From Labilithrix sp. (lineage in GTDB: Bacteria; Myxococcota_A; Polyangia; Polyangiales; Polyangiaceae): DNA of 64,000 nt. The stretch covers positions 62,001 through 126,000 of the forward strand of contig JAHBWE010000023.1 in NCBI GenBank assembly GCA_019637155.1. Reading direction: 5' to 3'. Of the stretch, positions 1 through 33,499 are shown one piece after another. Both the position numbers and the translations under genes were made by a program. Below the pieces are notes generated by a model, which was not told the origin of the DNA, made no database searches, and worked only from the letters and a program-made list of their open reading frames with translations. Position 1 is the first letter of the stretch. The number at the start of each line of letters is the position of its first letter.

Positions 1-578
1 TGCTCGGTCACGCGGACGGCGCCGAAGCGCTCCGGCGTGCTCGCGAGCGTGATCCAGACGAGGCCGCGCGCGGCGCGGAGCGGGTTCGCCTGCGGTCCGA
101 GGACGAGGCCCGGCTCGACGGCGTCGCACCGCGTCGGCACCGGCGCGGCCGGGAGCATCGAGACGAGGTGCGTGATCCAGGCGTCGAAGGCGCCCTCGGC
201 GGAGGCGCGCCGCGCCGGATCGGCCAGCGCCTCGACGAAGAGGCGCGACGGGATCCTGAGCACGGAGCCGCCGGGGGGACCGGTGAGGAGGAGCGCGGCG
301 AGCTCGGTCGCGTTCGCGTCCGGCGCTCGCGCGAAGAGGAGCTGTCCCGGCGCGACGGAGCTCACGTACGCGCGGCGCCCGACCGCGCGGCCGTCGCGCC
401 ATCCGACGCAGAAGAGCTGGTGGCCCGGCATCGTCGTGACGTAGACGTAGGCGGGATCGTCGAGGAGGAGCGGCTCGTCGCCCTCGACGCGGAGCTCGTC
501 GCACGCCTCGCCGAAGAGCGCGCGCAGCGACGCGGCGACCTCCGGCTCCTCCTGGCTCGCGCGCGCGGTGTCGATCAT
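1..578 (-). CDS. NHLM-type export system, second ABC transporter protein (5' part, cut by left edge)
   Basis: The reading frame opens at an ATG (576-578) that shares the sequence ATGA with the stop of the peptidase/ABC gene, and it stays open to the left edge, giving 192 visible residues. The visible part starts MIDTARASQEEPE and holds segments such as YVYVTTMPGHQLFCVGW and PPGGSVLRIPSRLF. It is a soluble-looking N-terminal domain with no membrane segment or Walker motif yet. In NHLM peptide export loci the C39-peptidase/ABC gene is normally followed by a second ABC protein with such an N-terminal extension, so this identity rests on position plus the domain's look. The ATP-binding half must lie outside the window. 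Translation is probably coupled to the upstream gene. Confidence 0.72.
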   Translation of the reverse strand, partial: MIDTARASQEEPEVAASLRALFGEACDELRVEGDEPLLLDDPAYVYVTTMPGHQLFCVGWRDGRAVGRRAYVSSVAPGQLLFARAPDANATELAALLLTGPPGGSVLRIPSRLFVEALADPARRASAEGAFDAWITHLVSMLPAAPVPTRCDAVEPGLVLGPQANPLRAARGLVWITLASTPERFGAVRVTE

Positions 579-2743
579 GAGGTCGTGATCAGCTCGTGGT
601 AGAGGCCGCCCTCGGCCATGAGCGCCTCGTGGGAGCCGCGCTGCACGGCGACGCCGCGATCGAGGACGATGATCTCGTCGGCGTCGCGGATCGTGGAGAG
701 GCGGTGCGCGATGATGAGGCAGCTGCACCCGCGCCGGCGGAGGTTCGCGTCGACGCGCTGCTCGGTCTCGGGATCGAGCGCGCTCGTCGCCTCGTCGAGG
801 ACGACGATCGCCGGCTGGCGCACGAGCGCGCGCGCGATCTCGAGGCGCTGGCGCTGCCCGCCGCTGAAGTTCACCCCGCCCTCGAGGATCTTCCCGTCGT
901 AGCCGCCGGGGAGCTTCGCGATGACGTCGTGGATGCACGCGTCCTTCGCCGCCTGCACGACGTCGGCCTCCGGGATCGTGTCGTCCCAGAGGGTGAGGTT
1001 CTCGCGGACGGTACCCTCGAACAACGTCACCTCTTGATCGACGATCGCGACCGACGTCGTGAGCGCGCTCCGCGGGAGCGCCTCGCGCGGCGTGCCGTCG
1101 AAGACGATCTCGCCGCTCCACGGCCGGTAGAGACCGCAGACGAGGCGCGCGACCGTCGACTTGCCGCTCCCGCTCCCGCCGACGAGCGCGACGCGCTGTC
1201 CCGGCGAGAGGTGCAGCGTCAGCTCGCTCACGAGCGGCGGCGACAGCGGGAGGTAGCCGAAGGTGACGTCCTTCAGATCGAGCTCGCCGGTGAGGCGGCG
1301 CGTGTCCGCCTCCGTCGCGGCCGCGGCGAAGGTCGTGTCCTCCTCGTGCTCGAGGACGTCGTCGAGGCGCTCGAGATCGCCGCGGAGCTGCTGGAGCGAC
1401 GCGCCGACGTGGGAGAGGCTCTCGATCGGCCCGAGGAAGCCGGCCATCAGCGTCTGGAAGGCGACGAGCATGCCGAGGCTCATGTGGCCGTCCATCACCC
1501 GGAGCGCGCCGATCGAGAGGACGAGGAGCGTGCTCGCCTGCCCGACGAGGCCGGTCGTCGTGAGGAGGAGCTGATCGCGCCGCGCGAGGGCCTGCTGCGA
1601 CGCGAGCAGCTTCGCGTGGTATCCCGCCCACTGCCCGAAGAACTCGGTCTCGGAGCCGGTCCCCTTGATCGTCTCGATCATCTGGAGGCCGCCGGACGCG
1701 ACGCCGTGGAGCTTGCCGTGGTGCTGCACGACCTGCCGGGAGAGGTCGGTGCGCGCGCGCTCGGCGCCGCGGAGCAGGAGGATGTACGCCGCGGCGGTGG
1801 CGAAGCCGATGAGCGTCAGCCACGGATCGATGTACAGCATGAAGAGCGCGTAGAACGCGACGAGGACCAGATCGAGCGCGATCCCGGAGACGCGCCCCGA
1901 CAGCGTGTGCGCGACGGCGTCGTTCGCGCGGACGCGATCGGCGAGGTCACCTGCGGAGCGCGCGAGGTAGAAGTCGATCGGCAAGCGGAGCGCGTGCCAG
2001 AGGAACCCGGTCGCCATCTTCACGCCGAGGCGCGCGACGAGCTTGATGAGCGCGGTGCGCTGGAGGTACGTGAGGACGAGGCGGAGGAGCGCCGCCGCGC
2101 TCATCGCGAGGAGGATCGACGAGAGGAGGTCGACCTGCCCGCCGACGAGGACCTCGTCGACGAACACCATGCCGAAGACGGGGACGACGAGCCCGGGCAC
2201 GAGGAGGCAGAGACCGGCGAGGGCGATGAAGGCGATCGCTTCGCGCGATCCCGCGAGCCGTCGCGCGAGCATCGCGAACATCGAGGGCCGCCGCCCCTTC
2301 GGCCGGTACGCCTCCGTCGGCTTGAAGGAGAGGACGACGCCGGTGAAGGCCTGGTTGAACTCCTCGAGCGGGACGCTCGTCGGCCCCGCCGCGGGATCGT
2401 TCAGGTAGGCGCGGCGATCGTCGAAGCCCTCGACGACGAGGAAGTGGTTGAAGTTCCAGTGGACGATGACGGGGAGCGTGAGGTCGGTGACCTGGTGCGG
2501 CTCCTTTCGGTAGCCCTTCGCCTCGAGGTCGTATTTGCGCGCGGCCTTGATGACGTTGCTCGCCTTCGAGCCGTCGCGCGAGACGCCGCACTCCTCGCGC
2601 AGCTTCGAGAGCGGCACGAACGTGCCGTAGTGCTCGAGCACGATCGCGAGGCTCGCCGCGCCGCACTCGGTCGCCTCCATCTGGAGGCGCGTCGGCGTGC
2701 GGATGCGCTTCACCTTCTTCGGCTTCGGCGCCTCGGCGGTCAT
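575..2743 (-). CDS. NHLM-type peptidase/ABC exporter (C39 peptidase, membrane domain, ATPase)
   Basis: This is a 722-residue exporter that cleaves a double-glycine-type leader from a peptide substrate and pumps the peptide across the inner membrane. Residues about 20-150 form a C39 peptidase: Gln21 and Cys27 in QMEATECGAAS, His100 in NFNHFLVVEG and Asp116 in LNDP. A six-helix ABC membrane domain follows (about 165-450). The ATPase has Walker A GGSGSGKST near 515, signature SGGQRQRLEIARAL and Walker B VVLDEATSALD. Length and order match peptidase-containing ABC transporters of the NHLM bacteriocin family. The start ATG overlaps the HlyD stop by one base (TGATG) and the stop overlaps the next gene (ATGA). 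Processing and export are family knowledge; the substrate is not visible here. Confidence 0.9.
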   Translation of the reverse strand: MTAEAPKPKKVKRIRTPTRLQMEATECGAASLAIVLEHYGTFVPLSKLREECGVSRDGSKASNVIKAARKYDLEAKGYRKEPHQVTDLTLPVIVHWNFNHFLVVEGFDDRRAYLNDPAAGPTSVPLEEFNQAFTGVVLSFKPTEAYRPKGRRPSMFAMLARRLAGSREAIAFIALAGLCLLVPGLVVPVFGMVFVDEVLVGGQVDLLSSILLAMSAAALLRLVLTYLQRTALIKLVARLGVKMATGFLWHALRLPIDFYLARSAGDLADRVRANDAVAHTLSGRVSGIALDLVLVAFYALFMLYIDPWLTLIGFATAAAYILLLRGAERARTDLSRQVVQHHGKLHGVASGGLQMIETIKGTGSETEFFGQWAGYHAKLLASQQALARRDQLLLTTTGLVGQASTLLVLSIGALRVMDGHMSLGMLVAFQTLMAGFLGPIESLSHVGASLQQLRGDLERLDDVLEHEEDTTFAAAATEADTRRLTGELDLKDVTFGYLPLSPPLVSELTLHLSPGQRVALVGGSGSGKSTVARLVCGLYRPWSGEIVFDGTPREALPRSALTTSVAIVDQEVTLFEGTVRENLTLWDDTIPEADVVQAAKDACIHDVIAKLPGGYDGKILEGGVNFSGGQRQRLEIARALVRQPAIVVLDEATSALDPETEQRVDANLRRRGCSCLIIAHRLSTIRDADEIIVLDRGVAVQRGSHEALMAEGGLYHELITTS

Positions 2744-3723
2744 CAGCCCTCGTCGTCGAGCGCCGGGAACACGAGCGCGATCGGCCGGCTGGCGCGCGTC
2801 ACGACCGCCGCCTCGCAGCGCGTGCCGCTCGTCAGCGTCACCTCCGGTCCTTCCCCGTTCGACCAGCGGTACCCGCTCGGCGTCGCGCCGCGCTCGAGCT
2901 CGGCGCGCACCGCGATCGGCGCGCCGCCGGCGGCCTGGATGAACGCGTCGACGAGCTGCTCGTTGCGGAGCGCGCCCATCATGCCCGACCGCGTCGACGG
3001 GTACTGCTCGACGGACCTCACCTTCCCGAGGAGGACGCCCGCGCGCTCCTTCTTCACGACCGACGGCGCGATCTCGACCTGCATCCCCGGACGGAGCGAC
3101 TTGCCGACGTGGGAGTCGAAGTAGAGGAGCGCCTCGAGCTCCTGCCCCTCCGGCGTCGCGCGCTCGATCGTCGCGAGCGGCGTGCCCGGCGTCACGCGCT
3201 CGCCGGGGACGGCCCGCACCTCGAAGACGCGTCCGGCGGCGGCGGCGTAGAGCTTCGCGCCGGAGGTGCGCGTCTTCCTCAGGCGCTCTAGCTCCTCGCG
3301 CAGGCGATCGCGCCGCGCGCCGAGCGACGCCGTCACGGTCCCGGCGTCGACGTCGTGATCGAGCTCGTCGAGGCGGCGCGCGAGCCCTTCGATCTGTCGA
3401 TCGAGCGCCGGCTGGGCGACCTGCGCGACGAGCTGTCCCTGCTTCACCTGATCGCCGGCGGAGACCTCGACGCTCACGAGCTCGCCCTCCGTCTCGGCGA
3501 GGACCTCCGAGAGCCCCGCGCCGCCGAGGAGGATCCCGCTCGCGTGGACCTTCGAGCGCACGCGCCCGAGCGAGCCCCACGCGATCGCGGTGGCGATGAC
3601 GAGGGCGCAGCCGGCGAGCGCGAGCCACGCCTTCGCGTTGGTCACGCGCATCAGCGTGTGGAGCTGCTCGGGGGAGCTGAGGCGATCGAGGGCGGCCTTG
3701 CGAAAGAGCTTCGAGTCCGCCAT
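2743..3723 (-). CDS. HlyD-type membrane fusion protein of the NHLM export system
   Basis: The 326-residue protein begins MADSKLFRKAALDRLSSPEQL, has one membrane segment near residues 33-50 (LALAGCALVIATAIAW), then a biotinyl-lipoyl-like beta domain split by a short coiled coil (about 105-150, rich in Leu/Arg/Glu). The second half-motif is near 155-185 (KLYAAAAGRVFEVRAVPGERV). This is the architecture of periplasmic adaptors that link a C39-ABC exporter to the outer membrane. Its stop overlaps the exporter's start by one base, and it starts two bases after the stop of the cyclic-nucleotide-binding gene, so all four genes form one operon. The coiled coil is short compared with HlyD proper, as is usual in NHLM-type adaptors. 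Confidence 0.87.
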   Translation of the reverse strand: MADSKLFRKAALDRLSSPEQLHTLMRVTNAKAWLALAGCALVIATAIAWGSLGRVRSKVHASGILLGGAGLSEVLAETEGELVSVEVSAGDQVKQGQLVAQVAQPALDRQIEGLARRLDELDHDVDAGTVTASLGARRDRLREELERLRKTRTSGAKLYAAAAGRVFEVRAVPGERVTPGTPLATIERATPEGQELEALLYFDSHVGKSLRPGMQVEIAPSVVKKERAGVLLGKVRSVEQYPSTRSGMMGALRNEQLVDAFIQAAGGAPIAVRAELERGATPSGYRWSNGEGPEVTLTSGTRCEAAVVTRASRPIALVFPALDDEG

Positions 3724-3725
3724 CG

Positions 3726-4235
3726 CTAGCTCCCCCGCGCCTCTTGCACCTGGCGCGCGAGGGCGTTGAAGCGCGCGCCGGCGCGGTCGACGTTGTCGAG
3801 CACGCTGTCGTCGAGCTCGTCGTCGTAGGAGGCGTCGGTCGCGTTGCGGAGCCGGTCGGAGAGGAACGTCGCGACCGACTTGTAGAAGCGGAGCCCGAAG
3901 CCCGGGTTCTGCTCGAGCGCGCCGGCGAGGACACGCCGCGAGATGGCGTACACCACCGCGTCTCCGGCGGCGCTGACGGTGGCGCTCGGCGGCCGCGCGT
4001 CGACGAACGACATCTCGCCCGCGACCTCGCCCACGCCGAGGCGCGCGATCTCGCGCTTCGTCTTCCCCTGCTGCACGACGAGCTCGCCCTCGAGCACGAT
4101 GTAGAGGCGCTCGACGGGCACGCCCTCGGTGATGAGCGCAGCGCCCTTCGCGACGCGCTCCTTGCGCCCATGCTTCGCGAGCCAGTCGACGTCGGCGTCG
4201 CTGAGCTGTCCGAAGATGAAGAGGACCTTCCGCAT
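3726..4235 (-). CDS. Cyclic-nucleotide-binding domain protein, first gene of the NHLM export operon
   Basis: This 169-residue cytosolic protein is essentially one CAP/CNMP-type beta-roll domain (about residues 8-125). It has YIVLEGELVV, GEVAGEMSFVDARPPSATVSA (a phosphate-binding-cassette-like stretch) and the closing helix. There is no helix-turn-helix, so it is not a Crp-type activator. The last 45 residues are acidic then charged (DDELDDSVLDNVDRAG) and may bind a partner. The Arg-Pro-Pro-Ser-Ala-Thr segment resembles the RxxSA core of cAMP-binding cassettes, but ligand binding is inferred. Being the first gene, two bases ahead of the HlyD gene, it could gate export in response to a nucleotide second messenger. 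Confidence 0.82.
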   Translation of the reverse strand: MRKVLFIFGQLSDADVDWLAKHGRKERVAKGAALITEGVPVERLYIVLEGELVVQQGKTKREIARLGVGEVAGEMSFVDARPPSATVSAAGDAVVYAISRRVLAGALEQNPGFGLRFYKSVATFLSDRLRNATDASYDDELDDSVLDNVDRAGARFNALARQVQEARGS

Positions 4236-4370: not shown

Positions 4371-5939
4371 GTGCCCGTTCAGGATCCGGTCAAGCTCTGG
4401 TGCCTTGGGGTCGGCGCGATGCTCACGGAGGTGAACGGTCTCCGTCATGACGAGATCGGCGGATGGGCGCCGGGGCCGCGGGCGCGTGAGTGGTGCGCGA
4501 ACGTCCTCTCCGACTCGTGGGGCGTCGCGGGGGAGAAGCAGTTCCACGAGATCGTCGACTGGCTCACGCGCACCGGCCACAGCGCGGAGGCGCGCTCGCA
4601 GATCGCGGGGCTCGGGCCGAACCCGCTCGCCGACTACCCGAAGCAGACCATCGTCCGCGCGCACCGGCAGCAGATCGAGCGGCAAGGCCTCCTCGCCTGG
4701 GACTGCGGGCGCCTCGCGTCGATCGTCGGGTGGGGCTTCCACGTCGGGTACCTCGACGAGAACGAGACGTGGCGCATCCTCCACGGCAACGCGCGGCGCG
4801 TGCAGCAGACCTACTCCGCCTGGCGCGAGCTCGGCGACGCCTACGTGATGGGCCGGATGTGGTGGGCGCAGGGCGCGACGAACGAGAAGACGCGCAACGC
4901 GCACATCAACCTGATCGGGAGCCCGAATTCGCCGTGGAACCGGATGCCGTGGCAGCACCCGCTCGGCGACGCGCCCGCGCCCGCCGCGCCCGGAGCGTCG
5001 AGCAAGGCGACGGTCCGCTTCAAGCGCAGCGTGTGCCCGAGCTGCGGCGGCCACAAAACGCGGCCCTCGCAAACGGCTTATGTGTATTGCGACTTCTGCG
5101 GGACCCTCGCCGACTACGACTTCCAGAAAGCGTGCGAGGTGCCGGCGAAGCAGCCGGGGCCGGCGTATCAGGAATTGAACGCGCGGCTCGGGCCGATGAT
5201 GCAGCAGGCCAAGGCGACCGGCGACGTCAACGGATATCGCAACTTGCAGCGCCAGCTCTTTGCGATGTACATCGAGCAGCTCCCGAACGCGAACCCGCCG
5301 CGCGTGAGCGATCCCGAATACCGTAATCGCTACATCGAATACATGGCCGAGGGCGGCACCGTGACCGCGTTCGACCCGCAGGCGCTCGCGCTCGAGGCGG
5401 AGGTCACGCGCTCGATCGGTGCGCTCCAGTGGGCATTCCCGAAGCCCGGCGTCATGAAAGTAGCGGCCCACAGCTTCGGGCCGATGGCGAATGCCGTGTT
5501 CGCGCAGCAGGACTACATCGCGCGGCTCTACGAGTCGCGCGGCGTCTACGCGATGCACCCCGACCGCGCGCCGGGCGAGCTCCAGAAGCGGGTAGGGATA
5601 TCCCTCTTCGTCCAGGGCTGGCTGCCGATGCTCGACGAGGCGTCGACGCAGGCCTTCCTCGAGCGCGCGGGGCTCAAGACCGAATACGTCGAGGTCGAGC
5701 CGGTGAAGGGCGATAAAGCAGATTGTGGGGGGTGCGGCAATCCGCTCGAGGTCCTCCCCGGCGCCAAGCGCTGCATCTGCGAGAAGTGCGGGCGCGGGCT
5801 CGAGGTCGCGGGGGAGCGCATCTCCTGCCGCGGCTGTGGCGCGCCGCTCGCGCCGACGGAGGGCTCGAGCACCGTGACGTGCCCGCACTGCAAGAACAGC
5901 TTCCAGCGCGTCCAGATGATCCAGCCGGGGTTCGGATGA
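4371..5939 (+). CDS. DUF1266-domain protein with zinc ribbons
   Basis: The likely start is the GTG at 4371 (VPVQDPVKLWCLG), giving 522 residues. An alternative is the ATG at 4420. Residues about 20-200 match the DUF1266 pattern: a compact helical domain with LLAWDCGRLASIVGWGFHVGY and a run of conserved Trp/Gly/Asn. A zinc ribbon follows at about 222-245 (CPSCGG then CDFCG). Near 452-515 there are three more pairs: CGGCG/CEKCG and CRGCG/CPHC. No signal peptide or membrane segment is seen, so it should be cytosolic. Its stop overlaps the start of the SUKH gene (ATGA). The role of DUF1266 is not established; the ribbons suggest protein or nucleic-acid contacts. I do not assign a function. Confidence 0.8.
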   Translation: MPVQDPVKLWCLGVGAMLTEVNGLRHDEIGGWAPGPRAREWCANVLSDSWGVAGEKQFHEIVDWLTRTGHSAEARSQIAGLGPNPLADYPKQTIVRAHRQQIERQGLLAWDCGRLASIVGWGFHVGYLDENETWRILHGNARRVQQTYSAWRELGDAYVMGRMWWAQGATNEKTRNAHINLIGSPNSPWNRMPWQHPLGDAPAPAAPGASSKATVRFKRSVCPSCGGHKTRPSQTAYVYCDFCGTLADYDFQKACEVPAKQPGPAYQELNARLGPMMQQAKATGDVNGYRNLQRQLFAMYIEQLPNANPPRVSDPEYRNRYIEYMAEGGTVTAFDPQALALEAEVTRSIGALQWAFPKPGVMKVAAHSFGPMANAVFAQQDYIARLYESRGVYAMHPDRAPGELQKRVGISLFVQGWLPMLDEASTQAFLERAGLKTEYVEVEPVKGDKADCGGCGNPLEVLPGAKRCICEKCGRGLEVAGERISCRGCGAPLAPTEGSSTVTCPHCKNSFQRVQMIQPGFG

Positions 5940-6583
5940 AGAAGAGCACGAGACTTCGCGCCGCCGAGCCGGCCCCGGACGTCGACGACGTCGTCCGCCG
6001 GCTCGAGCGCCTCACGAAGAAGAAGAACGAGTCGTACCGTTTCGGCACCCGCCTCGCCGAAGAGCAGCTCCGCGCGTTCGAGGACGCGCACGGCGTCACG
6101 CTCCCGGAGGAGTACCGCGCCTTCCTCCAGGCCGCGGGCGAAGGCGCGTCGGGCCCCGACTACGGGCTCGTCACCCTCGCGCACGCGATCAAGGAGCGCG
6201 GCGAGACGATCTACGGCCTCGCCGATCCGTTCCCGATCCCCGCCTCGACCGCCGACCTCCTCGACTTCGCGGTCGGCGGCATCCTCCCCGTCGCCTACGG
6301 CGGCTGCTCCTACTTCACCGGCATCGTCACGACCGGCCCCGCGCGCGGGACGATGTGGTTCAGCGTCGAGGCGCGCCCGGGCTGGGTGCCGTGCTGGAAG
6401 GGCGCGCTCCTCGGCGCGAACGGCAAGCCGTACGCCGCGCCCGCCGACGCCGATCCGTACCGCGCGACGTACGACGCCGCGCTCGATCCCGTGAACGAGA
6501 AGCTGCGCCTCGGCTTCGCGGGCTGGTACGCGGGGTGGCTCGAAGGCGAGGAGCGCAAGGTCCTCGCCGGGGGCCTGTCGTGA
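5936..6583 (+). CDS. SUKH (SMI1/KNR4) domain protein
   Basis: This 215-residue cytosolic protein has a charged start (MKKSTRLRAAEP) and an SMI1/KNR4-type domain at about 40-190. The diagnostic region reads LRAFEDAHGVTLPEEYRAFLQAAG, followed by PVAYGGCSYF and a Trp-rich end. SUKH domains are known as immunity proteins against polymorphic toxins and as protein-binding modules in stand-alone regulators. No toxin gene is seen next to it, so immunity is only one option. It overlaps both neighbours by four bases (ATGA upstream, GTGA downstream), which ties it to the DUF1266 and WD40 genes. Confidence 0.82.
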   Translation: MKKSTRLRAAEPAPDVDDVVRRLERLTKKKNESYRFGTRLAEEQLRAFEDAHGVTLPEEYRAFLQAAGEGASGPDYGLVTLAHAIKERGETIYGLADPFPIPASTADLLDFAVGGILPVAYGGCSYFTGIVTTGPARGTMWFSVEARPGWVPCWKGALLGANGKPYAAPADADPYRATYDAALDPVNEKLRLGFAGWYAGWLEGEERKVLAGGLS

Positions 6584-8667
6584 GCGAGCCGGTCGCGCTG
6601 CCGCGCCACCGCGGGAGCGTCACGATGCTCACGTTCACCGCCGACGGCCGCGTCCTCTCGACCAGCCTCGACCGCACCGCGCAGCTGATGCTCGCCGAGA
6701 CGCGGAAGCCGCTCGCGGTCTTCGAAGGCCACCTCGCCGCCGTCGCCGACGCGGCCGCGCTCGCGAACGATCGCGTCGTCACCGCCTCGTTCGACGGCGG
6801 GGTGCGCTTCTTCGACGCGACGACGGGGCGGCTCGCGCTTCTCGCGAAGGGCCACACGAGCCGCGTGATCGCGCTCGCGGTCGCGCCCGGCCGCGAGCGC
6901 GTCGCGAGCGTGAGCGACGACGGATCGGTCCGGATCTGGGACCGCGACGGCAACGCGGGACCGGTCCTGCGCGGCCACGACGACGGCGCGATGCGCGCGT
7001 ACTTCGAGGACGACAAGGCGATCGTCACCGTGTCGCGCGCCGGGATCGTCGCGACGTGGGACGCGACGACGGGCAAGCGCATCGAGACGAACCGGATGGC
7101 GACGCCGGAGGAGAAGGCGGAGCCGGCGCCGCCGCGCGCGCTCGAGCTCGCGAAGGGGATCGTCGCGGAGGCGCGCGACGACGGCACCGTCCGCATCACG
7201 GAGGCGAACAGCGGGCGCGCGGTCACGCTCGGCGGCCACGACGACGCCGTCACCGTGCTCGCGATCTCCCCCGACGGCGATCTCCTCGCCGCGGGCTCGG
7301 CCGACGGCGCGATCCTCGTGTGGCGCTGGCGCGAGGCGTGGGGCCGCGGCGACGGCGCGGCCGCGGCGACGCCGGAGCTGCCGTGCGTGTGGCGCATCTC
7401 CGCCGAGACGAAGACGCCGGACACGCGCTTCGACGGCGGCGAGCTGTGGGTCGGGCGCTCCAACGTCCTCCACGCGTACGACGCCGAGACGGGCGAGCGC
7501 GGGAGGACGATCGAGGCGCAAGGCGACCTCGTGCACTTCGGCAAGAAGCGGCTCGTCTTCGCGCGCTTCGTCGCCGAGATGAGCGTCGTCGATCGCAAGA
7601 GCGGCAAGGCGGTGCTGACCGCGCCGCTCGAGGGCGAGCACCTCCGCGCGCGCGCCGCGCAACCGCTTGCATGGTGCACACGTCGCGCGGGGAAACCGAA
7701 CGCGCTGCGCATCGTCGATCCCGACAAACCCGACCTCGCGGAGCTCGGCCCGATGAAGGGCTCGCTCGGCGTCTTCGCGTTCCGCGCCGACGGCAAGCGC
7801 GCGGCGGTCGCGGCGGCGGAGGAGCCGCGCGCGTGGCTCTGGAACGTCGAGAGCGGCAAGCTCGTCGCGGAGGCGACGTGGGAGGGCGCGCCCGCGACGC
7901 AGCTCGCGTTCACGCACGACGGCACGCGCGTCGTCGCCGGCACGCGCGACGGCCGCGTCCACGTGCTCGACGCGACGACGGGGGAGCGCGTCCGCGAGCT
8001 CGTCCCGCCGCCGGGCGATCCCCAGCGGCAGGGCCTCGCGCCGATCCACGTGTCGCCGGCGAGCGATCGCGTCGTCGCGTGGGGCGGCGACGCAAACCAC
8101 GCGATCCTCTTCGACACCACGACCGGCGCGCCGCTCCTCCGCCTCTTCGGCGAGGAGAAGTCGGGCCTCGTCGCCTCCGGGGTCGCGTTCTCGCCCGACG
8201 GCACGCGCCTCGTCGCCGCGCACGTCGCGCGCCCGAAGCTCGTGTTCTACGACCCGATCGCGGCGGTCCGCGTCGTCTCGCACGAGGTCCATCGCTCCGG
8301 CGGCGTCGGCGTGCAGCTCCGCTTCTTCGCCGGCGGCAAGCGCATGCTCTCGTGGGCGACGCAGGCGATCGACAAGAGCCTCCGCGCGTGGGATCCGCGC
8401 ACGGGCGAGCGGCTCTGGGCGAACCTCGGCCTCGGCGGCGAGGGGATCGACGCGGTCGTGCTCTCACCGAACGAGCGCTTCCTCGCGGTCACGTCGCGCG
8501 GCTGGCCGCTCGTCCGCGTCGTCGACGCCGCGACCGGCAAGACGGTCGCGGACCTCGCCGGCCACCAGGGCTACGTGCCGCCGCCGAGCTTCGCCGCCGA
8601 CGAGACGCTCCTCGCGACGAGCTCCTACGAAGGCGACGTGCAGGTCTGGGAGCTGCCTTCGGGTTAA
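6580..8667 (+). CDS. WD40-repeat protein (cytosolic, probably two propellers)
   Basis: The GTG at 6580 overlaps the SUKH stop (GTGA) and gives 695 residues. The chain is a near-continuous series of WD40 repeats, such as SVSDDGSVRIWDRDG, ISPDGDLLAAGSADGAILVW, FSPDGTRLVAAHV and SSYEGDVQVWELPSG. That is probably 12-14 blades, so two stacked seven-blade propellers. No signal peptide, kinase, caspase or other enzymatic domain is attached, which suggests a scaffold. The stop shares TTAA with the stop of the convergent methyltransferase gene. As third gene of a tightly overlapped trio it probably assembles the DUF1266 and SUKH partners, which is inference from gene order. Confidence 0.88.
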   Translation: MSEPVALPRHRGSVTMLTFTADGRVLSTSLDRTAQLMLAETRKPLAVFEGHLAAVADAAALANDRVVTASFDGGVRFFDATTGRLALLAKGHTSRVIALAVAPGRERVASVSDDGSVRIWDRDGNAGPVLRGHDDGAMRAYFEDDKAIVTVSRAGIVATWDATTGKRIETNRMATPEEKAEPAPPRALELAKGIVAEARDDGTVRITEANSGRAVTLGGHDDAVTVLAISPDGDLLAAGSADGAILVWRWREAWGRGDGAAAATPELPCVWRISAETKTPDTRFDGGELWVGRSNVLHAYDAETGERGRTIEAQGDLVHFGKKRLVFARFVAEMSVVDRKSGKAVLTAPLEGEHLRARAAQPLAWCTRRAGKPNALRIVDPDKPDLAELGPMKGSLGVFAFRADGKRAAVAAAEEPRAWLWNVESGKLVAEATWEGAPATQLAFTHDGTRVVAGTRDGRVHVLDATTGERVRELVPPPGDPQRQGLAPIHVSPASDRVVAWGGDANHAILFDTTTGAPLLRLFGEEKSGLVASGVAFSPDGTRLVAAHVARPKLVFYDPIAAVRVVSHEVHRSGGVGVQLRFFAGGKRMLSWATQAIDKSLRAWDPRTGERLWANLGLGGEGIDAVVLSPNERFLAVTSRGWPLVRVVDAATGKTVADLAGHQGYVPPPSFAADETLLATSSYEGDVQVWELPSG

Positions 8668-18767: not shown

Positions 18768-19253
18768 TCAGGGCTTGTCGGCGCACTGCTGGAGGCACTC
18801 GGTGGCCTCCGTGCCGAGGTTGCCGAGGTCGCCGAGGTCGCAGCCGTTCTGGAGGAGGCAGATGCCGCACTCGATGTTGGGGAGGCCGCCCTTGCAGACG
18901 TTCTCCTCGCAGACCGTGGTGCACTTGCCGGTGGTGCCGCAGGCGCAGGAGTCGACGATCTTCTTCGGCGCCTGCTGCCCGCAGCACTTCGCGCAGTCCG
19001 CCTTCGTCGCCGCCGTCTTCGGGTCGCACGTGTTCGGCTCGTTCGTCGGGGCCGGCTGCTGCGACTGCTGCGTCTTCGGCTGCGTCTGCGTCTGCGCCGG
19101 CGCCGGGCGCTGCGGCTCCGTCTCGTCCTCGTCCTGCAGCGTCGACTCGTCGTCGTCCGTGCGGTCGAGCAGCTGGTCCGCCTTCCCGTCGCCGCAGGCG
19201 ACCGTGAGTCCGGCGAAGGTGGCGACGAGGGAGAGAACGAGGAGGGTGCGCAT
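18768..19253 (-). CDS. Cysteine-rich lipoprotein, unknown
   Basis: The protein has 161 residues. The lipobox LTVACGDG puts the acylated Cys at about residue 20. An acidic then Gln/Pro/Thr-rich spacer (about 30-75) leads to a compact domain with 14 cysteines in 85 residues, including KCCGQQ, DSCACG, CTTVCEENVC and CGICLLQNGC. Such density indicates a disulfide-stabilised surface module. The family was not recognised. The upstream region toward the divergent CocE gene contains a conspicuous AT-rich patch. Confidence 0.72.
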   Translation of the reverse strand: MRTLLVLSLVATFAGLTVACGDGKADQLLDRTDDDESTLQDEDETEPQRPAPAQTQTQPKTQQSQQPAPTNEPNTCDPKTAATKADCAKCCGQQAPKKIVDSCACGTTGKCTTVCEENVCKGGLPNIECGICLLQNGCDLGDLGNLGTEATECLQQCADKP

Positions 19254-30985: not shown

Positions 30986-33499
30986 ATGCGTCAGATCATC
31001 AGGAGCTTCGCGCTCGCGGGCGTCCTCGCCGCTGCGCTCACGATCGAGCACAGCGCCGAAGCGCAGACCTTCCCGAACCCGCCGACGAACGCGAACCCGT
31101 TCTGGATCCCGATCCGGCGTGGCGGCAACGTCATCGGGGACCTCCCGAACGCGAACGCGGACTACCGCGACATCGTCGGTGACGCGACGTTCCCCGCCGC
31201 GTACGTCGCCTCGGACGCCACCTTCCTCTACTTCCGCGTCCGCATCAACGGCAGCCCCGGGACGTTGGGCTCGCTCGGCAACAATCGCGGCTACGGCTGC
31301 ATGATCGACGTCAACAACAACAACTTCTGGGACCGCTTGGTCACGCTTGACGGCAACGGCACGGATGCGGTCAAGCTCTGGTCGAACTCGACGACGACGC
31401 CTGCACCGGCGAACGCGTCGACCGACACCGCGGACGGTTCGTCGACCAACTTCGCAGCGAACACGCATGCGCGAGTGTCCGTCGCGGACTCCACCTTCTC
31501 GAGCAACGCGGACTCTTTCGTGGACGTCGCCGTTCCGTGGGCCAACCTCCGGACCGGTGGTGTGACGGCGGCGACCGCTCTTCGCTTCGTCTGCGGGGTG
31601 ACGGTCAGCGCGACGTCGGCGAACAACCTCGGCGCCGACATCTTCGACGGCGATGCCTCGACGACGCTCTCGACGAGCTGGAGCGACGCGTACACGTGCA
31701 ACGGCGGGGGGCGGAACCTCTGCACGACGTCGTACGACTCTGACGGTGACGGCGTGTCGAACACGCTCGAGGACGTGTTCGGGACGATGCCGAACAACGC
31801 CGACAGCGACGGCGACGGCATCCCCGACTTCTACGAGCTCACGCCCGCGGGCGGCGGTGACTTCGCGGCGGTGAACTCCGACAGCCTCGGGCCGATCGAC
31901 GCGCTCGACACCGACGCCGACAACGACTGCGTCCTCGACTCCGTCGAGGGCATGACGACCTACCGCAACGCCTCGCTCCCGAACGCGAACCCGAACGACG
32001 CGTGCACGGCCGATCCCGCGGAGGCGATCTGCAACCGCCAGACGGGCACCTGCGCCGGCTGCACCGGCAACATCGGCACCGGCCCGCTCGCGTGCCCCGA
32101 CGCGGCGGAGCCGTACTGCAACCAGTCCGGGCCGATCGCCGGGCAGTGCTCGGTGTGCACGATCGCGCTGGCGAGCGCCTGCACCGGAGACACGCCGGTC
32201 TGCGACAGCGCGACCGGCACGTGCTCGACCTGCAACGGCGACCGCGGCTCGGCCGCGAGCGCGCCGTGCACCTCCGTCAGCGCCCCCGCCTGCCAGCCGG
32301 CCGGGACGACGCTCGCCGGCAGCTGCCGCCAGTGCAACGCGACCAACACGGCGCTCTGCAACGTCGTGAACCCGGCCTGCTCGACCGAGACCGGGACGTG
32401 CACGAAGTGCGACGCTCACTTCGGCGCCGCCGGCGCGATCGCGCCGTGCCCGACCGCGGCCGCGCCCGCCTGCAACGTCGGCAGCGCGTACGACGGGCGC
32501 TGCACGGTCTGCTCGCCGAACAACACGAGCCTCTGCACGACCGATCGCCCCGCGTGCGATCCCTCCACCCGCACCTGCGCGCGCTGCAACGGCGACCGCG
32601 GGAGCGGCGCCGCGATGCAGTGCCCGAACGAAGACGCCCCCAACTGCGTCCTCGCCGGCGTCGATCAGGGCGCGTGCAAGAAGTGCGAGTCGAGCGCGGA
32701 CTGCGGGCCGGGGCACACCGGTCCGACCTGCGACACGACGACGGGCGCCTGCGTCGACGTCGACACCGACGGCGACGGGCTCCAGGACGAGATCGAGATC
32801 CTGCTCGGCACCGATCCGCTGCTGCCCGACACCGACGGAGACGGCATCGACGACAAGACCGAGGTCACGCCTCCCGGGGGCGGGGCGTTCGAGAAGGTGG
32901 ACAGCGACAGCGACGGTACGATCGACGCGCTGGACCTCGACAGCGACGACGACGGCATCCCCGACGCGGAGGAGGCGCGCGTCGGCGACGCGGGCCCGAT
33001 CCTCGACACCGACGGGGACGGCCTCGCAGATTTCCGCGATCCCGACGACGACAACGACGGCATCCCGACGAAGGACGAGGTCGCGGACTCGAAGCTGGCG
33101 GCGGTGAACAACGACGACGTCGACGGCGACGGCAAGAAGAACTGGCTCGACTCCGACGCCAACAACAACACCTTCAGCGACGGCGACGACGGCCGCGACG
33201 ACGAGGACGGCGACGGCATCCCGAACTACCTCGACATGAAGAAGGACGTGCCGGCCCCCGAAGGCGGAGCGTCGTCGACGAGCTCGAGCTCTTCGTCGAG
33301 CTCGGGCAACGTCATCATCCGCCCGCCCTCCTCGAGCGGCGATCCCGACGCGGGCGCGCCCGGCGCCAACGCGGAGGACGGCGTTCTCGAGGGGAGCGGC
33401 TGCAACGCGACCGGCGGCCCCGCGTCGTCGCTCGTCGTGTTCGGCCTCGGCGCGATCGCGATCGGCCTCGTCTCCCGCCGCCGCCGCCTCCGCCGTTGA
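30986..33499 (+). CDS. Surface protein with Cys-rich and TSP3-like repeats and a MYXO-CTERM-like tail
   Basis: The protein has 837 residues. A signal peptide ends near HSAEAQT (residue 27). A beta-rich domain of about 210 residues follows. TSP3/EF-hand-like acidic repeats (SDGDGIPDFYEL, DTDADNDCVLDSVEG) flank a Cys-rich middle (about 330-590) built of repeated modules like GTCSTCNGDRGS and CTVCSPNNTSLC. A second acidic repeat series runs to about 755. A Ser-rich spacer is followed by GSGCNATGGPASSLVVFGLGA and the basic RRRRLRR end: the Cys, hydrophobic helix and Arg cluster of MYXO-CTERM signals, which mark processing and attachment at the myxobacterial surface. It probably forms a unit with the OmpA/TSP3 gene. 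Confidence 0.88.
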   Translation: MRQIIRSFALAGVLAAALTIEHSAEAQTFPNPPTNANPFWIPIRRGGNVIGDLPNANADYRDIVGDATFPAAYVASDATFLYFRVRINGSPGTLGSLGNNRGYGCMIDVNNNNFWDRLVTLDGNGTDAVKLWSNSTTTPAPANASTDTADGSSTNFAANTHARVSVADSTFSSNADSFVDVAVPWANLRTGGVTAATALRFVCGVTVSATSANNLGADIFDGDASTTLSTSWSDAYTCNGGGRNLCTTSYDSDGDGVSNTLEDVFGTMPNNADSDGDGIPDFYELTPAGGGDFAAVNSDSLGPIDALDTDADNDCVLDSVEGMTTYRNASLPNANPNDACTADPAEAICNRQTGTCAGCTGNIGTGPLACPDAAEPYCNQSGPIAGQCSVCTIALASACTGDTPVCDSATGTCSTCNGDRGSAASAPCTSVSAPACQPAGTTLAGSCRQCNATNTALCNVVNPACSTETGTCTKCDAHFGAAGAIAPCPTAAAPACNVGSAYDGRCTVCSPNNTSLCTTDRPACDPSTRTCARCNGDRGSGAAMQCPNEDAPNCVLAGVDQGACKKCESSADCGPGHTGPTCDTTTGACVDVDTDGDGLQDEIEILLGTDPLLPDTDGDGIDDKTEVTPPGGGAFEKVDSDSDGTIDALDLDSDDDGIPDAEEARVGDAGPILDTDGDGLADFRDPDDDNDGIPTKDEVADSKLAAVNNDDVDGDGKKNWLDSDANNNTFSDGDDGRDDEDGDGIPNYLDMKKDVPAPEGGASSTSSSSSSSSGNVIIRPPSSSGDPDAGAPGANAEDGVLEGSGCNATGGPASSLVVFGLGAIAIGLVSRRRRLRR

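Follow-up and report, generated by a model that had tools for sequence, protein, structure and literature searches.

How might a peptide exporter make use of a cyclic-nucleotide-binding protein that has no DNA-binding domain, and what would it carry when no precursor gene lies beside it? Both questions are raised by the left end of a 64,000-nucleotide stretch, here called the window, of a Labilithrix sp. draft genome (GCA_019637155.1; 10.1 Mb in 46 contigs). The window spans positions 62001-126000 of the 171-kb contig JAHBWE010000023.1, designated C23. A compact NHLM/NHLP export operon occupies its positions 1-4235 on the minus strand, with genes for a CNMP-fold protein (designated cNMP), a HlyD-type adaptor, a peptidase/permease/ATPase (ABC1) and the start of a second ABC protein (ABC2). 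We find the NHLM exporter itself to be ordinary; it comes with an unstudied accessory subunit that recurs elsewhere and is partly named. Because the pairing of cNMP with the exporter recurs across many bacterial groups, we infer that cNMP probably controls export.

An NHLM export operon opened by a CNMP-fold protein

The HlyD adaptor, ABC1 and ABC2 all score above the curated cut-offs of their NHLM/NHLP families and are encoded by adjacent genes in one overlapping run, which bears out the NHLM-type exporter called in a first-pass annotation made from the letters alone (Table 1). The ABC2 gene leaves the window on the left, and the whole protein (P0004) has 1004 residues and reaches 826.7 bits against the TIGR03797 cut-off of 709.4. 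Two bases separate cNMP from HlyD, and stop and start codons overlap at both the HlyD/ABC1 and the ABC1/ABC2 junctions. The adaptor, at 326 residues, is shorter than the 421 positions of its family model. Scans for promoters and terminators yielded no signal that stood clearly above shuffled sequence.

The only Pfam match in cNMP is PF00027. With no DNA-binding Pfam domain at E values up to 1, and thus no C-terminal helix-turn-helix of the kind that marks CRP/FNR transcription factors, no DNA-binding domain was found, in agreement with the first-pass annotation. By profile, the best matches among solved structures include cGMP-dependent kinases, cAMP-dependent kinases and CRP. The C-terminal tail is conserved, with E140, L146, A152, R155 and F156 invariant in 23/23 aligned copies, and from this pattern the tail could possibly be a docking helix. 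A structure model of cNMP built from a three-row alignment was poor (predicted local distance difference test score, pLDDT, 61) and was not used.

Table 1. Positions of the export operon, of regions within cNMP and of other features (window numbering unless a contig or locus is named)
Feature	Position	Strand	Details
cNMP, single-domain CNMP-fold protein, first gene of operon	3726..4235	-	169 aa; PF00027 E 3.5e-16
cNMP phosphate-binding-cassette region	3975..4031	-	GEVAGEMSFVDARPPSATV; canonical Arg position = Pro83
cNMP conserved C-terminal tail	3759..3824	-	DDELDDSVLDNVDRAGARFNAL; alignment of 23 copies
HlyD-type adaptor	2743..3723	-	326 aa; TIGR03794 272.9 bits, cut-off 156.2
ABC1, C39 peptidase/permease/ATPase	575..2743	-	TIGR03796 1028.6 bits, cut-off 853.3; PF03412, PF00664, PF00005
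ABC2, first 192 codons (predicted CRP-like module)	1..578	-	gene runs left to C23:59564
C9 RiPP-type cluster	L055:7916-16174		two Nif11 precursors and modifying enzymes
S41-type lipoprotein, left of window	L004:5852-7567 (C23:57852-59567)	-	571 aa
Divergent neighbours	4374-8667	+	DUF1266, SMI1/KNR4 (SUKH) and WD40 proteins

The cNMP gene is linked to NHLM genes in several phyla

Among 75 examined places with a cNMP match, the window and the relative G149 included, 51 adjoin NHLM genes, and these come from several phyla. When three cNMP proteins were used as queries against named genomes, 24 loci came up, and in 19 of them an NHLM C39 gene lies beside cNMP. A search of phylum samples with the 23-row cNMP alignment matched 7/347, 6/398 and 23/343 genomes at 41 places; three of these were already among the named loci, 26 were examined with wide flanks and 12 with 1.5-kb flanks only. 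NHLM genes are present in 23 of the 26 wide-flank loci, across three phyla. The short-flank loci are linked in 2 of 17 cases, both among the 12 phylum-sample places and both with HlyD beside cNMP; the other 10 of the 12 are weaker matches in frames of 254-578 residues.

In the window's own class, matches occur in 10/317 genomes. Five encode a full-length cNMP (221-232 bits) and all five are NHLM-linked, four by direct reading and the fifth, on Sorangium contig L060, by coordinates; the other five encode a different protein (544-545-residue frame, 96-97 bits) without NHLM genes within 1.5 kb. On plasmids, five of the six annotated matches (of eight in total) lie within NHLP operons, and the sixth, from Nostoc, lies among Nif11/NHLP precursors and TOMM genes. 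The single-domain form occurs in Myxococcota, Acidobacteriota, Planctomycetota, Pseudomonadota, Bacteroidota and Anaerolineae. The first-pass annotation was prepared to give up the association if relatives proved unlinked, and on these counts the association holds. Its description of cNMP as the first gene is right for the window and fails as a general rule: by coordinates over 44 loci the gene opens the operon in 28 and closes it in 16, staying with it in either order. The neighbour listing leaves out five near-duplicate loci and the window's own.

The phosphate-binding cassette lacks its arginine

In cAMP and cGMP receptors such as PKA and CRP, an arginine of the phosphate-binding cassette holds the cyclic phosphate. 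The window protein has proline at this position. Across the 23 aligned copies the cassette glutamate is kept in 22, and the arginine column holds proline, threonine or alanine, never arginine. None of 44 NHLM-linked copies has the arginine (36 Pro, 5 Thr, 3 Ala), nor do any of 24 unlinked or short-flank relatives or any of the eight domains in the six plasmid copies, including both domains of two cyanobacterial TIGR03896 proteins. As a control, the arginine is found in 20 of the 28 other CNMP domains that this genome encodes, and cGMP-kinase domains 1, 2 and 4 keep it in the profile alignments. Because the arginine is missing across the family, canonical cAMP or cGMP binding is unlikely as judged from sequence, and the nucleotide control suggested in the first-pass annotation finds no backing in that form.

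In 7/49 NHLM-linked loci a class III cyclase is encoded no more than 2 kb from the operon, against two farther off. These cyclases have six architectures: membrane, REC, FHA-GAF, GAF, AAA-TPR and CHASE2 (twice). A binomial test of nearness against the flanks gave P 0.009 over all 49 loci and 0.010 with six near-duplicate or same-genome loci left out; the test is post hoc, as the 2-kb limit was chosen after the places were known and five of the matches had seeded the search model.

Longer relatives of cNMP (L078, L079, L210-L214; 482-545 residues) also have a CNMP domain without the cassette arginine, and by eye the C-terminus of L078 and L079 is methyltransferase-like.

A CRP-like fold is predicted at the N-terminus of ABC2

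We modelled the N-terminal 421 residues of the ABC2 homologue from the relative L059 (14 alignment rows, mean pLDDT 76.9). Residues 1-136 of this model match the folds of CooA, NtcA and CRP with Z 9-10, for example 1ft9_B (Z 9.7, root-mean-square deviation (rmsd) 2.7, 115 aligned residues) and 2xhk_A (Z 9.4, rmsd 2.8, 118 aligned), and residues 282-400 match C39 peptidases (5xe9_A, Z 10.5, rmsd 2.9, 114 aligned). Foldseek ranks regulatory subunits of kinases, which carry CNMP domains in tandem, at the top (E 3.8e-5, low TM-scores). Strands in the model and these tandem-domain matches suggested a second CRP-like domain at about residues 145-240; because the TM-scores are low, we claim only one.

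The modelled chain looks like a HetC-type protein with a dead peptidase. According to the published account (PMC10986499), HetC of Nostoc PCC 7120 is a CNMP-C39-ABC exporter whose CNMP domain is required, and this domain binds guanosine tetraphosphate (ppGpp) with a dissociation constant of ~59 uM and does not bind cAMP, cCMP or cyclic di-GMP. We inspected by eye the longest translations from eight C39-ABC loci of relatives and of the genome's own contig C11 (L002, L009-L015) and recognized no HetC-like CNMP-C39-ABC fusion; the look is incomplete, since at least the L010 and L012 translations are in the wrong frame. At L180:4294-8499, next to a cNMP-NHLM operon, a 1401-residue protein with a C39 peptidase-like start is possibly a fused exporter.

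A candidate cargo lies on another contig

No credible short gene with a Gly-Gly leader was found in the window or in the 20 kb to its left, and the remainder of the contig (C23:1-42000 and 126001-170854) yielded none either. A permissive scan gave an antisense match at 31960-32403 of the window that we judged not credible, and the single leader match in the rest of C23 has GA in place of GG and belongs to an RNA-binding-like protein. The absence of a linked precursor, noticed in the first-pass annotation, persists over the whole contig.

Elsewhere, a small Gly-Gly gene is present at 20 of 44 NHLM-linked cNMP loci, against one in 16 among control stretches, where the single case had been chosen for its precursor. 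In our genome, contig C9 carries two Nif11-type Gly-Gly precursors about 4.3 kb apart in a cluster of the ribosomally synthesized and post-translationally modified peptide (RiPP) type. Both exceed the PF07862 cut-off (34.9 and 36.3 bits against 23.8), placing them among Nif11 precursors; with TIGR03798 (cut-off 32.3) one lies above at 36.2 and one below at 29.5. Their Gly-Gly motifs are LDAVTGG and LDAVAGG. The accompanying enzymes are a radical SAM/SPASM protein resembling dynobactin maturases, an aKG-HExxH protein, a JmjC protein, a 2-oxoglutarate (2OG) oxygenase and an FkbM methyltransferase, and no exporter was seen in the 20-kb C9 stretch.

Only two C39 matches occur in the genome, namely ABC1 and a dissimilar gene on contig C11 (L002), and there is a single TIGR03796 match above cut-off. 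We set the C11 gene aside as an NHLM exporter, as it is not NHLM-like by eye and has no TIGR03796 match above cut-off. Directly before its cNMP-HlyD-ABC1-ABC2 operon, the relative G149 encodes a Gly-Gly precursor, one radical SAM enzyme and a pair of HExxH enzymes, of which one is 40% identical to that of C9. Given the C9 precursors and enzymes, the sole NHLM exporter and the G149 arrangement, it is plausible from sequence that the C9 peptides are exported in trans by the window's exporter. The first-pass suggestion that the cargo may lie elsewhere thus gains a plausible candidate, short of proof. A Nif11 search in the closest relative, G009, gave weak matches only, and we do not believe a single 20-bit match in our genome to the NHLP-type leader TIGR03793 (cut-off 51).

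A Polyangiaceae relative has halogenase-like flavoproteins, recognized by eye, near its NHLM operon, and two Nif11 precursors on two contigs, both ending Cys-Cys-Trp (L037:1-3737 and 18795-19163; L056:9850-10206 for these features together).

How the cNMP protein may act on the exporter

We propose that ABC1 and ABC2 of this operon form a heterodimeric NHLM peptide exporter. The C39 domain of ABC1 is predicted to cut Gly-Gly leader peptides, ABC2 would be the partner, with a C39-like pseudo-peptidase and a CRP-like (CNMP-fold) domain in front of it, and HlyD would be the adaptor. The separate cNMP protein would serve the exporter as a dedicated accessory subunit in the cytosol, acting on the exporter protein and not on DNA. 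It most likely binds the cytosolic face of the exporter, perhaps at the CRP-like domain of ABC2, and would permit export only in a particular nucleotide state. Canonically bound cAMP or cGMP is probably not its ligand; HetC points to ppGpp or a GTP-like nucleotide as one candidate, and another is a non-canonical cyclic nucleotide from the class III cyclases that neighbour some relatives. The cargo here would most likely be the C9 pair, modified at the C9 locus and exported in trans. This proposal builds on gene content, families, linkage, the missing arginine and the precursor and cyclase neighbours in relatives; the contact between cNMP and the exporter, the gating, the ligand and the C9 cargo are the parts that we infer. 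Taken whole, from heterodimeric exporter to gating subunit and C9 cargo, we hold it to be about evenly balanced between right and wrong.

Several observations weigh against it. Pfam finds no CNMP domain in ABC2, and the model is a single chain of a relative's protein (L059) with a predicted TM-score (pTM) of 0.58. In L070 and L076 the ABC2 protein starts with the pseudo-peptidase and has no CRP-like part, yet cNMP is kept, which leaves room for docking at another site. Of the 75 cNMP places, 24 have no NHLM gene in the stretch examined, including the good-scoring L063, L065, L183 and L184. Conversely, the same phylum has NHLM operons without a linked cNMP gene (L093, L094, L095, L097), and cNMP is thus not essential to the export machine. 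The window operon itself has no linked precursor and no class III cyclase within 40 kb, and C9 is a different contig of a draft genome.

The missing arginine would also suit a ligand-free pseudo-receptor, a structural or assembly subunit partnered with the CRP-like domain in ABC2. The constant tail motif, the position of the gene beside ABC1/ABC2 in both orders and the CRP-like module itself fit such a role, whereas the cyclases near 7/49 loci and the ppGpp binding of the HetC domain argue for a ligand, and we consider the pseudo-receptor rather unlikely. Similarly unlikely, and a shade more so, is the reading in which cNMP gates the exporter as a classical receptor of cAMP or cGMP. The PF00027 fold, the glutamate in 22/23 copies and the nearby cyclases speak for it. 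Against this, the arginine is absent from all 44 linked copies and all eight plasmid domains but present in 20/28 other domains of the genome, the HetC domain (PMC10986499) binds neither cAMP, cCMP nor cyclic di-GMP, and the cyclase test is post hoc with a partly seeded model. That cNMP has no export role and is a passenger of horizontal transfer, which would suit its patchy spread (10/317, 7/347, 6/398 and 23/343 genomes in four groups), is very unlikely, since the linkage outlasts changes of gene order, divergence to ~40% identity and the distance between several phyla.

The gating proposal can also be widened. We speculate that NHLM exporters are nucleotide-gated, with the CRP-like module of ABC2 and a detached cNMP sensing a non-canonical nucleotide, made in some hosts by a dedicated neighbouring class III cyclase, such that a second messenger switches peptide maturation and export directly, without transcription; we think it improbable that this holds in full. 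What the first-pass annotation observed is confirmed and its interpretation is partly supported. The locus offers a concrete, testable case of modified-peptide export being controlled at the exporter itself: recurrent cyclases next to a family without the arginine make the ligand a pointed question, the predicted ABC2 module suggests a site of action, and the orphan exporter of this genome gains a candidate cargo.

Relation to known systems

The association of cNMP with NHLM genes is already known to NCBI for a two-domain form. The NCBIfam family TIGR03896 (cyc_nuc_ocin, 'bacteriocin-type transport-associated protein') shares with cNMP the C-terminal half, tail included, and the NHLM association. 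We take the family to be defined by two CNMP domains together with association with an NHLM transport operon. Our protein has the association, as do 50 further loci, but a single PF00027 domain in 169 residues; it scores 130.1 bits, under the cut-off of 161, and matches only model positions 139-317 of 317. Three other tested single-domain copies likewise fall below the cut-off (134-151 bits). Two cyanobacterial plasmid proteins lie above it, one in an NHLP operon and one in a Nif11/NHLP precursor cluster, and the two tested members have two CNMP domains (364 and 372 residues).

The three transport proteins belong to the NHLP/NHLM system of TIGR03794, TIGR03796 and TIGR03797. For this system the available part of Haft et al. 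2010 (PMC2887384) gives three transport genes and mentions no cyclic nucleotide; compared with that account, the window adds the cNMP gene, has a short adaptor and lacks a linked precursor. As in HetC (PMC10986499), a CNMP-fold domain is tied to a C39 ABC exporter, and the HetC order of CNMP, C39, permease and ATPase resembles the ABC2 model. Unlike HetC, where the domain is fused to an active peptidase, cNMP is a separate protein and the predicted CRP-like module sits on a pseudo-peptidase subunit. With CRP and PKA-type receptors cNMP shares the fold by profile, but it has neither the cassette arginine nor a DNA-binding domain. Within the literature collection searched, also under the TIGR03896 name, no paper on the cNMP protein was found, leaving HetC as the only tested parallel. 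New here are a single-domain form beyond the cyanobacteria, an arginine lost throughout the family, the recurrent cyclases, the predicted ABC2 module and the candidate trans cargo.

Neighbouring genes

After ABC2, an S41 protease-like lipoprotein is encoded by a fifth overlapping gene, whose start overlaps the ABC2 stop. It resembles the CPAF family (221 bits, below the cut-off of 250) and carries a PDZ_4 domain. With no counterpart in the 24 named and 26 further loci, it was set aside as a part of the export system. Divergent from the operon on the plus strand lie the genes listed last in Table 1. The HlyD adaptors of Polyangiaceae operons (the window, L036, L037, L092) have ~325-330 residues, and those of Sorangium, Planctomycetota and Gammaproteobacteria loci have 419-480, as if the Polyangiaceae ones were without a long hairpin.

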